DNA from: Punctularia strigosozonata HHB-11173 SS5
Taxonomy: Eukaryota; Basidiomycota; Agaricomycetes; Corticiales; Punctulariaceae
Assembly (NCBI RefSeq): GCF_000264995.1
Contig: NW_006767439.1
Coordinates: forward strand, 475,179-539,178
Length of the DNA: 64,000 bases
Direction of reading: 5' to 3'
The notes beneath the pieces were generated by a model. It saw only the letters and a program-made list of their open reading frames with translations. It made no database searches and had not been told where the DNA came from. The position numbers and the translations under genes were made by a program. Of this stretch, positions 4,972-11,617 are shown piece after piece; position 1 is the first letter of the stretch; every line of letters starts with the position of its first letter.

Positions 4972-6382
4972 TCATTGGCCGCTTTTTCTGGCTTTCCTAA
5001 TCCATGGGCTTGACTGCCCATTCTTCGGCTTCTTTTGTGCGGGTTTGAGAATCTATATGACAAGCAGAGAAGTTGGACGCCTTGACGTCAACTGTTTTGT
5101 CCTCGAACGAAAGCACACTATACGAACGAGGAATGTGCATAGCAAATCTTCGTCCACGGACATCATCGCTCCTGCGTTGTCGAATTCTCCGCAGTAATTT
5201 GGAGCCGAGAAAATTGTGACAAGGTGTCTTTTTGCAAAGAATTCATAGCCGTCCTCGACAACCTGACATCATTGAGACAACCACGTTGGATGAATCCTAG
5301 ACCTGAGGCTCACCTGATGAGCACGGCAGATCAGGTCGAATTGATGTTTGCTCAAGAATTCGGCGACCACGTCGGGCCCAAATGTGAACGAGATTCCGCG
5401 GTCGTTTTCGCCCCAACCCTTGATTGCGTTTTCGGGATCTGACCAAAGGAGGTCGCATATGAGACCTGCGAAGACGGTCAGAAGCGTGCTAGGAGATATC
5501 GAAGAGAATGTTTACCGGTGTCCGGTATGTCGGTGGGCCGCATAACCCTCCGTATCTGATCCATAACCTTCAAGTCCGGACTGAGCCCGCCATGCATGCA
5601 GAATATGCGGTCACCGACTATTGCGGCGATGGGCAAGCAATTGAAGCAGTCCGTAAACGTTTTCCACAGCTTTATATTATATCGACGTTTGCCTTGCGCA
5701 GAAGTTCAATACGTGGTGTGACAAGCAACTTTGATAGTAATGCTGACATTCATCGTAGAAACCGTATATCCGGTTTGTGCTCGCGGCTTCGTGGTTTCCC
5801 CGTAGGAGGAAGAAATTCTCCGGGTACTTGATCTTGTAAGCCAACATCAGACATATCGTCTCCAATGACTGCTTGCCCCGGTCGACATAGTCGCCCAAAA
5901 ACAGATAATTCGCTTCCGGGGGAAAGCCACCGTACTCGAAGAGGCGCAAGAGATCATAGTACTGTCCATGGATATCGCCTTGGCAAAAATAAACAGAATT
6001 AGCCCGCGGGGAACAGAAAACTCGGAAGTAATTGTACCGCATATCTTGATCGGGGCTTCGAGCTCCAGAAGATTGGGTTGGGCGAGGAACACCTCTCGTG
6101 ACTTGGCGCACAGGTACTTGATCTCGTATTCGTGCAGCTGCACTAGCTTTCCTGGCCGATTGCCTCGCACTGCGGGGAAAATGGCATCAGCATGCTGATT
6201 TCTTGATAATGGCTGAAGACCTGGACCTCTGCCGCTCCTGGACCTCTCGCCGTGAGTCTCCCCACGGCTCGGACTGGTGCGGCAAGGCCCGGAGCCGTTG
6301 GTTGGGCCGTCGTCTCACCTGCAACGAGCCTGTCAATGACAGAGTCAAGGTCTATTTCAGTGATAGGCACAGCCGCCTGCAT
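4972..6382 (-). CDS. Protein phosphatase 1 catalytic subunit, diverged copy A
   Basis: Metallophosphatase of the PPP family, removing phosphate from Ser/Thr of many substrates chosen by regulatory subunits. Exons (minus strand): 6319-6382, 6038-6169, 5748-5978, 5516-5692, 5314-5465, 5128-5262 and 4972-5052, giving 323 residues, all in frame. The metal and catalytic motifs are intact: GDIHGQ, GDYVDRG, GNHE, HGGLSPD, ICRAHQ and [13 protein letters not shown]. It differs from copy B at NHEAAS (Ala where PP1 has Cys) and INR becomes TNR. The segment [13 protein letters not shown] is diverged, and the short tail lacks the TPPR site. All six intron positions match copy B. The start was chosen so that exon 1 aligns with the other copies; an in-frame ATG lies 15 bases upstream. 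No stops or frameshifts: it looks functional. Confidence 0.9.
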
Positions 6383-7587
6383 TATTTTATCCTGCACGGA
6401 ACGTGTCTACGCTTTCAAGTAATGCAATGTCTACTTAAAAGATAGCAGGGGCTCTGAAGGAGATGCAAGGGTAGTGATATAATGGAACTGGTATGAATGA
6501 ACACGCCAAACGTGCGATCGCAACACAATGCAAGGGGGAACTGGGCCCGGAGATGGGCAGCGTCGGGGTAAAGAAACTGAGGCGGTGAAACCAGAGGCCA
6601 GCAGGTCAGAGTACAGCATATAAGTGCGTGCACCACTGAATCGAGTCATCCTTTTTCATGTATCAGAAAATGGAACATTTTTGATGGCTGACGGTTGCGC
6701 AGTTGCTTAGGTGATCGAAGGGCCATGCGCAAGATAACTCGGGGTGATTCGACCGAATACGCTACCCAAAGGCCAATAATAGCAGAGTGACCTCCAGAGT
6801 GTACGGCAAGTTGTAGAGGAAAGAACCAGAACATGCGCAGGTGAACGCGGCGAAGGACGTCGTCGGAACAGCAGGTATCATGACGTCAAACTTACAATTG
6901 CACGAGGTTACATGCATTATCATACCATTTAACAGAAATCGTGCGCAAGCATACGGGAGTGAGATAGAGAAGAATATTGTCATCGTGGAGGTAAACTAGG
7001 TTCAGAGTACAAGCGACTAGTATCGAGCGTAGGCGTGGCGGCAGTTGCGTAATTGGCGGGGCGAAAGACGTGTGTAAGGTGGCGAACAACAACGGTGCAG
7101 TTGCATCTAAGGCGATGTACGTCCACGGCCGGCGAGGGGTTTAACATGCGCGTCGTCAAGAGCGTATGTCTGCTTGGGTCGGATGAGGGATAGAAATGAG
7201 CGGCAGTATCGCGTAATCGAAAAAACGAGGGGAACGGGGAAATGCGGGGGAGGAGGGGATAGGTGTTCTGTTCGAGTCCGAATGCGCCGCACGCCTGCTG
7301 CTGCATCGTTCGCTCGTTTTATCTCGCCCTTGCGTGAGCTTGCCGCTTCGGCGACCAGCAGCCGCAACAGCACGGTCGGAGTGCCCTCTCCTGCGCGGAG
7401 CACGCGCCTGGGTCGGATGTTCATCGTACCCGATCGCGCCGCACACTCTGCCTTTGCCACCATTCACATCACCGCCGCTCTCGCACGTGCATCCTATTCG
7501 CCACCTTAATGGGGAGGTGAGACGCAAACAGACCAGGAAATAAAAACGGAAGGATATATGAGACAACATGGCGGCGCAAGCCGCAGT
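6383..7587. other. Spacer between PP1 copies A and B
   Basis: About 1.2 kb with no convincing gene. It holds the presumed promoter of copy A and the 3' flank of copy B. Open frames here are short and have no recognisable protein. I could not see a leftover PP1 fragment. Confidence 0.5.
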
Positions 7588-9102: not shown

Positions 9103-10257
9103 TATCTCCCCGCGTGTCGTTTGCGTATGTGTTTGAGGCCCGATTGCGAGCAAAGGGTGGTGCGTTCGGTTGTGTGTGTGCTTGGCGGGCGAGACGCCGA
9201 GGGAGTGATGAGTGCGGTGTCAGGCAAGCCGCGGCGGGGCGGACTCTGTCTTTTCGGAAATTTCTCCTCTACGAAACGTCCGCGGCGTGCCCGTATGCTG
9301 GCAGTTGCGAGAGCTGCCTGAAACGCAAAATCGATTTGAGTGGGTGCAGGGGGCTCGGGGAGAGGTAGAAGATAAACAACTCCTTCCCACGACCGGCACT
9401 CACGTAGTGATTTAGCCCAGTGAGCTTTGCGAAGGAACGGCTGGACACGGGCAGAGGTCGTTCAAAACTCGTCAATTTGCCCGGCAAACGGTACACGCAG
9501 CAATACTTTACAGGCACAGGATGGGGTCCATACTCGACACTCCTATAGGTTGCGCACAGAAGAGACAAATCTAATACGGGCCTAGGCTTGATGACACACG
9601 CTCCACCTCCATTCGTTAGATAACAGCCACGACACCCAAGCCGTGCTTCCGCGGTAGCGGAACTGTAGTCCTTGGAAGAGCCTGGCACAGAATGACTGCA
9701 CCAATGCACTCACGCGTCCCGGTGCTGCTTTGCGTCGTAAGCTACGGGCTAAGCCCGGTACAGGTCTGGACCCGCCAGCTCAGGCGTTCTCTGATCCAGA
9801 TCCAAGATTCAACAACGCGCCCGCGGTAAACAAAAGCGAAGTTCGCACCTCCGTTGCCGCGGGGTGCATTCCAGGGCAAGTCCATATGCAAGGACATGCA
9901 CCCCAGGACGGTCGGACAACCACAGGCGCCTTCCGGGACTGTGACTTGCCCAGTGACTCGTTGAGCAGCCGAAGTGTTTGGATTGCACATCCTCTCCTGC
10001 TCGACAAAACGCGGCGCGTTCTCGGCATTCGCTTTGTTCCTGTTAGTTTCCTTCCGCTTCGTTCATCCAATCATCCCTCCTCGGCGCAAAGAGAGGCCAC
10101 GACTCCTTGGAGTGGAATCGGCGCCTGTATTATGGGGGGGGGGGTGGAGGTTAATCCACATTATATTCCGTATTGTCCGTCCGCCTTTGCAGCGATGCGG
10201 CATTGTCTTCCTCGCCCACCGCGTCCAGCGCGCAGGCTCGTCGAGCCCGTGGAAAAG
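9103..10257. other. Spacer between PP1 copies B and C
   Basis: About 1.15 kb. It includes the copy B promoter and the copy C 3' flank. A minus-strand frame open over 9269-9709 shows no recognisable protein and no splice partner. An 11-base G run lies at 10134-10144. Confidence 0.45.
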
Positions 10258-11617
10258 TCATCGTCGCGGTGTGCCCGGCGGCGGACCACGTCTCCCAGAG
10301 CCATACGGGTACCGATTTTTCTTCTCCGCAGGCTTCAGGATCTGAAGCACGGTCTCGATCACCACCATCGTCATCCGCTAGAACTAAGATAAAACTTACT
10401 TGGAAAGAACAGAGCAGAGTCTCGTCCACACTCATCATAGCGCCCGCATTGTCGAACTCGCCGCAATAATTCGGGGCGGAGAAGAGGGTGACGAGCTGGC
10501 GCTTGGCGAAGAACTCGTAGCCGTCCTCCACGACTTGGTGCGCTCGACAGATCAGGTCTAGATCGTGCTTCTGCAAGAAGCGGGCAACTACGTCTGGCCC
10601 AAACCTGAACGAGACGCCGCGATCGTTCTCCGACCACCCGGTGATTTCCCGGTCCGGATCAGACCACAAGAGATCGCAAACGAGCCCTATGAAAGATCCA
10701 GTGAGCTAGTATACGACGGAACATATGATCGTGGCACACACCTGTATCGGGAACGTCCGTGGGCCGCATCACCCTGCGAATCTGCTCCATGTTCTGTAGA
10801 TCGGGGCTTAGACCTCCATGCATACAGAATATCTTCTCGTCAATGATGGCAGCGATGGGTAGACAGTTGAAGCAGTCCGTGAACGTCTTCCACAACTTGA
10901 TGTTGTACCTTCGTTTGCCTATATGCACGCACGTTAACCATCATATAGGTTCGGCACTGCGCGGCAAGCTGCACGCACACTCGTCGTAGAACCCGTATAT
11001 GCGGTTAATACTGGCATACTCGTGGTTGCCGCGGAGTATGAAGAAGTTTTCGGGGTACTTGATCTTGTACGCCAGCAGCAGGCAGATCGTCTCGAGAGAT
11101 TGCTTCCCCCGATCGACGTAATCGCCAAGGAAGAGATAATTCGCCTCAGGTGGGAAGCCACCGTACTCAAATAGCCGGAGGAGGTCGTAGTATTGGCCGT
11201 GAATATCGCCTGAACACCGAGCGAAGCACGGGTCAACACGCTACCGCGGGAGGGCGAGGTCGATACTCACCGCATATCTTAATCGGCGCCTCCAGTTCGA
11301 GGAGGATAGGCTGATTTATGAAGATCTCGCGCGATTTGACGCAGAGGTACTTGATCTCGTACTCTTGCAGGGTGACCGTCTTCCCCGGACGATGTCCTCG
11401 CACTGCGACGAAAGAACACCGAGATGAGAGGCCGTCCACGTCCACGTTTCAGGGCTTCGACAATCTCTCCCAGATTCGGGAGCCATGACCGGCCAATGAC
11501 CGCGCCTCCAACGCATGGAGTGCACGCAATGCCAAAGATAACCCAGATTCCAGACTCACCTTCGAGCAAACGGTCAATTATACTATCAACGTCCGCCTCC
11601 ATTACGGATTCCGCCAT
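10258..11617 (-). CDS. Protein phosphatase 1 catalytic subunit, diverged copy C
   Basis: Six exons on the minus strand: 11560-11617, 11271-11402, 10979-11209, 10742-10918, 10400-10686 and 10258-10341, giving 322 residues. It starts [20 protein letters not shown]; an in-frame ATG about 66 bases upstream is an alternative. All metal and catalytic motifs are present, but the residue after NHE is Tyr ([12 protein letters not shown]) instead of Cys. The intron that splits ICRAHQ from VVEDGYEFF in copies A and B is absent, so the fifth exon is fused. The tail reads [19 protein letters not shown] and then PPPGTPRR, keeping a TPR but losing TPPR and the basic run. It is closer to copy B than copy A is. 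No disabling changes are seen. Confidence 0.93.

Follow-up and report, generated by a model that had tools for sequence, protein, structure and literature searches.

Three predicted PP1 catalytic-subunit genes form an apparently old head-to-tail array in Punctularia strigosozonata

We analyzed a window of 64,000 nucleotides from Punctularia strigosozonata HHB-11173 SS5 (Corticiales, Agaricomycetes; contig NW_006767439.1, positions 475,179 to 539,178), whose minus strand carries, between window positions 4972 and 11617, three complete genes arranged head to tail, each encoding a catalytic subunit of protein phosphatase 1 (PP1). As judged from codon and protein comparisons, the array appears to be old and stably kept, and the two extra copies probably divide labour with a conventional one. 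Hand-built splice models of the copies, designated A, B and C, gave the following features, with lengths in amino acids (aa):

4972..6382, minus strand: copy A, encoding a divergent PP1 catalytic subunit of 323 aa in 7 exons (splice model and deposited protein P0008)
6319-6382, 6038-6169, 5748-5978, 5516-5692, 5314-5465, 5128-5262, 4972-5052, minus strand: exons of copy A
5693..5747, minus strand: intron 3 of copy A, with weak donor GTCAGC; the deposited protein P0008 implies the identical junction
5053..5127, minus strand: intron 6 of copy A, with weak donor CTC|GTTCGT; the preceding codon yields the unusual Q294L
6383..7587, no strand: A-B intergenic stretch, 1205 bp
7588..9102, minus strand: copy B, encoding a conventional PP1 catalytic subunit of 330 aa in 7 exons
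9045-9102, 8731-8862, 8431-8661, 8189-8365, 7979-8130, 7783-7917, 7588-7695, minus strand: exons of copy B
9103..10257, no strand: B-C intergenic stretch, 1155 bp
10258..11617, minus strand: copy C, encoding a moderately divergent PP1 catalytic subunit of 322 aa in 6 exons, without intron 5
11560-11617, 11271-11402, 10979-11209, 10742-10918, 10400-10686, 10258-10341, minus strand: exons of copy C

An earlier note, made from the letters of this DNA, had proposed three intact PP1 genes on one strand with these positions and gaps, and the splice models bore this out. The coding sequences run uninterrupted from 6382 to 4972 (A), 9102 to 7588 (B) and 11617 to 10258 (C), and the three homologous genes, in one orientation and spaced by about 1.2 kb, constitute a tandem; open reading frames called mechanically also lie in the gaps. 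All 17 introns are GT-AG. Six intron positions, with their phases, are common to A and B, and C has five of the six. The model of copy A is identical over 323/323 aa to P0008, the deposited PP1 protein of the same strain, and at least this copy has been annotated already. In three similarity searches, each listing the best 120 of about 8000 scored candidates, the record of copy C itself was absent among the matches listed for C, perhaps on account of the 90%-identity clustering of the database.

The age of the array was approached through pairwise comparison of the copies. Identical residues numbered 263/321 for A-B, 257/318 for A-C and 292/322 for B-C, C being about 91% and A about 82% identical to B, and nonsynonymous divergence (dN) by NG86 was 0.133, 0.147 and 0.072, respectively. 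In both comparisons that involve A, synonymous sites were saturated, and B-C came close to saturation. NG86 returned a synonymous divergence (dS) only for the B-C pair (4.6), maximum likelihood gave 9.7 (A-B), 26 (A-C) and 3.8 (B-C), all beyond the reliable range, and LWL85 gave 1.27 for B-C. At shared residues, codons were identical in 105/255 cases for A-B (within-gene shuffle mean 100.0, standard deviation [sd] 6.5; 493/2000 shuffles as high), 102/249 for A-C (mean 97.7, sd 6.1; 531/2000) and 140/283 for B-C (mean 122.8, sd 6.8; 26/2000). The B-C excess was confined to B codons 110-171, where 42/60 codons were identical, a count reached by 2/2000 shuffles, against 98/223 elsewhere; partial gene conversion is one possible reading. 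These codons correspond to window positions 8274-8524 and have intron 3 inside, which is 65 nt long in B and 60 nt in C.

Synonymous saturation ruled out a recent tandem duplication. It points instead to an old array of intact genes that would have been kept by long purifying selection under the constraints of PP1 itself. An array of such age is therefore not one gene assembled three times, and its age also counts against drifting pseudogenes. Both an assembly artefact and neutral evolution of A and C had been entertained in the earlier note; the former is contradicted by the divergence between copies, and the latter by synonymous sites at or near saturation alongside an NG86 dN of just 0.07-0.15.

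Most amino acid changes in the copies sit where other PP1s vary as well. In a set of 122 PP1s, 206 core columns reach a conservation of 95% or higher; at these, A is changed at 8, C at 2 and B at none, and in the remaining 89 core columns the departures number 36, 16 and 8 for A, C and B. The 122 proteins come from 152 fetched as top matches to A and C, and hence lean to conserved PP1; A's own record, rows without exactly one GDIHGQ and rows outside 300-500 aa were left out, which removed several Mycena variants from these counts. With the codon-level comparison, these residues uphold the earlier description of B as conventional and of A and C as diverged.

Residue changes spare the catalytic machinery. 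We compared the copies with 48 of 172 fetched proteins in a 51-row alignment; at the 11 catalytic positions examined, the three copies agree with each other and with all 48 other rows. In the RVxF-pocket row, the copies likewise agree with one another and with 22 of the 29 conventional rows, the other 7 carrying Met for Leu at one position; D242 and E287 aside, the list of pocket positions is our assumption. By sequence, the three lie nearer to PP1 than to PPZ, PP2A or other PPPs: the nearest database matches listed are PP1s, 86% (A) and 90-91% (C) identical, B joins the conventional PP1s in the tree, and PP1 chains are the top structure matches of an exon open reading frame of copy C. The earlier claim that every copy has the catalytic motifs also held, D64, H66, D92, N124, H125, H173 and H248 being present in all three; the metal-binding residues among them (D64, H66, D92, N124, H173 and H248) follow PMC4741303. 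A, B and C are thus classified as PP1 catalytic subunits of the PPP family, with predicted phosphatase activity.

The copies differ in the C-terminal tail, at residue 127 and, in A, on a docking surface. Copy B keeps Cys127 and a TPPR tail. Copy A carries C127A, I130T, D166G, E167D, K168R, S292T (at a site that is Ser in 122/122 other rows) and Q294L, and has no TPPR tail. Copy C carries C127Y and T226R (Thr in 120/122 rows), and its tail ends in GPPPGTPRR, without TPPR. The tails of A and C each retain a single Ser-Pro or Thr-Pro. An [ST]PPR tail, present within the array in B only, occurs in 22/29 conventional rows, 0/19 variant rows and 78/169 single-core proteins fetched, and Cys127 in 29/29, 1/19 and 132/169, respectively. 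The variant rows were chosen by hand before the tree was built, either because they looked divergent or because they bore the name Mycena or Favolaschia, and the features they share partly reflect this selection. In the 122-row set, residue 127 is other than Cys in 17 rows of varied lineages. As for docking, acidic patch 2 comprises E54, E56, D166, E167, D242 and E287 and lies between the SILK and RVxF pockets (PMC10066265); copy A alters two of these residues, through D166G and E167D.

We also considered a redox-insensitive PP1, because both extra copies lack Cys127 and this cysteine becomes oxidised in PP1-alpha (PMC6286341). This candidate was dropped, as a C127S/C273S PP1 had normal activity and an unchanged response to H2O2 (PMC4741303). 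The same paper shows that PP1 tolerates Ser at position 127; the Tyr of copy C falls outside that experiment.

The closest functional parallel is offered by Schizosaccharomyces pombe, in which Dis2 has a phosphorylated Thr316-Pro tail that is a target of cyclin-dependent kinase (CDK), Sds21 has no Thr-Pro site, and dis2 and sds21 are each singly dispensable, with lethality upon double loss (PMC7990198). There, as in the array, a conventional PP1 with a Thr-Pro tail stands beside a non-conventional PP1 without one, with close catalytic domains, although S. pombe has two such genes (PMC7990198, PMC8836105) and P. strigosozonata three. In the reading we favour, all three copies of the array would be expressed and active. 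Copy B, with its TPPR tail kept, would perform the general, essential PP1 work, and A and C would act as extra catalytic subunits with the same chemistry. Since the RVxF pocket is intact in A and C, many of their regulators are expected to be common with B. Being devoid of the tail site, both are expected to be spared phosphorylation of the tail, much as Sds21 is when compared with Dis2, and the partial loss of its acidic patch is expected to weaken the hold of A on inhibitor-3-like regulators. The likeliest net effect would be labour divided by expression level or stage, together with partly shifted partners and no new catalytic activity; going by the S. pombe case, expression is as good a candidate as the proteins themselves for what divides the labour.

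Several observations weigh against such a division of labour. The Dis2 tail is dispensable, and expression differences may, as the authors infer, be what separates Dis2 from Sds21 (PMC7990198); the missing tail in A and C therefore need not matter. Moreover, the [ST]PPR motif is far from universal, being missing from 7 of the 29 conventional rows and present in just the 78 of 169 proteins mentioned above. The SILK motif of inhibitor-3 adds little binding alongside its other motifs (PMC10066265). Copy A depends on two weak splice donors, those of introns 3 and 6; a comparably odd donor, GTTCGG, is also used by the conventional copy B. Finally, the AlphaFold model of copy A was poor (mean predicted local distance difference test score [pLDDT] 48.3, from a shallow 13-row alignment), supports nothing and was left unused.

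Relatives of the three copies were sought in the same listings. The 86% matches to A are conventional PP1s, and no closer orthologue of A is present among the 120 listed; the listings name no other Corticiales protein. Divergent PP1s among the listed matches belong to Mycena (14 species or strains), Favolaschia, Gymnopus and Lactifluus, with two more from Calocera. Copy B is 98% identical over 327 columns to a Lactarius PP1 and 99% over 320 columns to that of Jaapia. In the 51-row tree, A groups with Gymnopus (support 87/16), then with the two Calocera rows (88/76) and, one step further out, with Mycena and Favolaschia (94/94), all of its forks falling short of the tool's star, C groups with Lactifluus (93/70), and B falls among conventional Agaricomycete PP1s. 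The end branch is 0.40 for A versus 0.01 for B. A quick 57-row tree also joined A to Gymnopus and Calocera (support 84), whereas C had no firm place in it.

These groupings were confronted with constrained topologies. On all kept columns, the approximately unbiased (AU) test rejected a clade of A+B+C (p 0.0155), A+B (0.0099) and A+C (0.028) and kept B+C (0.14). Restricted to core columns, it still rejected A+B+C (p 0.0044-0.0045) and left A+B (0.06-0.10), A+C (0.07-0.15) and B+C (0.47-0.52) unrejected; the Shimodaira-Hasegawa (SH) test on core columns rejected none of the four (p 0.15-0.16 for A+B+C). Removal of columns 127 and 130 alone raised the AU p for A+B+C to 0.07-0.10. The strongest tree-signal columns, on both sides, lie partly in the poorly aligned tail. 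In sequences simulated under the A+B+C tree, the largest likelihood gap was 5.1 (24 of 40 planned replicates) versus an observed 25.0, a value that supersedes the 48.8 obtained with a faster tree search; some simulated gaps were slightly negative, which is search noise. In the first 12 replicates, A never entered the variant group, and the true A+B+C clade was recovered in just 2.

The divergent PP1s of other species share part of the features of A and C. A second PP1 of Calocera viscosa, which we infer to be P0029, is likewise a divergent extra PP1 of Agaricomycotina and, like A, has neither Cys127 nor TPPR; unlike A, it carries D242Q rather than D166G. Two PP1s are on record for C. viscosa in a published survey (PMC8836105). 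The Mycena, Favolaschia, Gymnopus and Lactifluus variants resemble A and C in having no [ST]PPR, and all but the Lactifluus row have no Cys127. Cys273, in contrast, is kept in A and lost in 10/14 Mycena rows and in the Favolaschia row. Five Mycena proteins (P0090, P0097, P0099, P0103 and P0108) have GD[TV]HG where GDIHG is usual and replace Cys273 by Gly or Val, with the metal ligands kept, and a PP1 expansion in Mycena is possible. P0172 of Mycena vulgaris groups with the PP1 variants, yet its source name is PP2A catalytic subunit.

The shared intron positions had been taken in the earlier note to mean duplication and not retroposition. They do speak for duplication, but fall short of proving that one copy gave rise to another within the Punctularia lineage, because two of the positions are apparently also found in other Agaricomycetes and because the trees leave the origin of A open. 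The two positions come from P0065 (Lactarius deliciosus) and P0035 (Psilocybe cyanescens), whose inserts resemble, by eye, retained introns at array intron positions 5 and 4, respectively; these inserts probably reflect errors of annotation, and as such they betray where old introns lie.

For the origin of A, we mildly prefer an old local duplication followed by convergence, because of the tandem position. A and C would then probably stem from old local duplications in the line toward Punctularia, and their likeness to the divergent PP1s of other species would reflect spare PP1s relaxing at a few same sites. The shared introns suit this account, as do the non-Cys residues at position 127 in varied lineages, the unrejected sister relationship of B and C, the locally raised B-C codon identity, and C171, which A, B and C share with Jaapia (T171 is found in 24/29 conventional rows and A171 in 15/19 variant rows). 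The AU and simulation results speak against it, and so, with little weight given the absence of other Corticiales names from the listings, does the lack of a near relative of A among the matches listed. Those same tree results are what lends some credit to a different history, tentative and in our view unlikely, in which A, perhaps together with C, would descend from a second, ancient line of PP1 in Agaricomycotina, born here by tandem duplication, inherited by Dacrymycetes and Agaricomycetes and lost in most of them, with Punctularia keeping the linkage. The grouping of A with Gymnopus, Calocera, Mycena and Favolaschia, the AU rejection of A+B+C on both column sets, the excess of the observed over the simulated gap, the two PP1s reported for C. 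viscosa and the synonymous saturation all agree with it. However, every fork of A is unstarred, core columns leave A+B and A+C (AU) and even A+B+C (SH) unrejected, the AU rejection fades without columns 127 and 130, and part of the full-length signal resides in the poorly aligned tail. C171 also tells against it, though both Calocera rows likewise have C171. Furthermore, long branches and shared relaxation at the same sites can mimic kinship, which the simulation leaves unmodelled, and the simulation itself seldom regained the true clade. It would be a doubtful step to regard the array as the very birthplace of that mostly lost second lineage of mushroom-forming fungi, kept beside the conventional gene since before the split of Dacrymycetes and Agaricomycetes, with a subunit devoid of the CDK tail site and Cys127 and weakened in its SILK-side acidic patch; the age in this proposal is inferred from the Calocera rows and is undated.

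That A and C are instead unexpressed or decaying duplicates seems quite improbable. The weak donors of A, its faster evolution (seen in its long end branch) and S292T at an otherwise invariant site are what decay might leave behind, but the frames are intact in spite of synonymous sites at or near saturation, amino acid change is shaped by constraint, and reading frames of 323 and 322 codons would hardly have stayed open for so long by chance. An artefact in which one gene was laid down three times by the assembly is close to inconceivable, as synonymous codons differ as much as shuffled codons, or nearly so, and the introns differ as well. In addition, a listing of repeats of at least 20 bp (11 direct, 5 inverted) has no entry that pairs the A-B with the B-C intergenic stretch, and the array contains no N.

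The specificity of PP1 is generally attributed to regulators that share one catalytic subunit. Three long-kept catalytic subunits with differing tails and one altered docking surface would amount to a natural experiment on how far such control resides in the catalytic subunit itself. One PP1 had been described in the earlier note as usual in fungi, and a review agrees that most fungi have one PP1 catalytic subunit and few, such as S. pombe, two (PMC6506691); the rule has exceptions, however, since a survey of 57 fungi counted 64 PP1s, 11 of them in 10 Agaricomycotina, and found two in fission yeasts, Calocera viscosa, Gonapodya prolifera and Allomyces macrogynus (PMC8836105). Our variant rows suggest that extra PP1s may occur in Agaricomycotina more often than that review and that survey indicate. 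No published fungal tandem of three PP1s was found in the open-licence literature at the level of titles and abstract beginnings. Outside fungi, Drosophila virilis has a head-to-tail cluster of Pp1-Y1, PpD6+, PpD6 and Pp1-Y2, ascribed to serial tandem duplication (PMC3137614). This cluster also places several PP1-type genes side by side in the same orientation, but its members are retrogene-derived and male-biased, whereas the copies in the array share introns and include a conventional PP1. The array is thus unusual but of a known kind, both extra fungal PP1s and tandem PP1-type clusters being on record.

A search of the 33.6 Mb genome with copy B gave 37 exon-level matches at E <= 0.001 among best-scoring candidates. 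Within these, every PP1 found sits in the array, and no match outside it exceeds 68% identity to B. The nearest gene outside, on contig C1, is 65-68% identical to B and has as its best solved-structure match 5jpe/5jpf, entries that say just Ser/Thr phosphatase and that we take to be PPZ1; the gene may be the PPZ of this fungus. PPZ has a PP1-like catalytic domain, as do A, B and C, but the three copies have no long N-terminal extension, which in yeast PPZ measures about 350 residues (PMC8836105).

Elsewhere in the window, the sole N run, of 276 bases, spans 33609-33884 and is an assembly gap or a masked stretch; a GA repeat (33885-33944) adjoins it, and an AG repeat (32459-32528) lies nearby. 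Five further open reading frames of the window had no match when checked against Pfam, and Pfam matches were obtained for mitochondrial ribosomal protein mL59 (21072-22181, minus strand) and ATG11 (59192-60775, plus strand).

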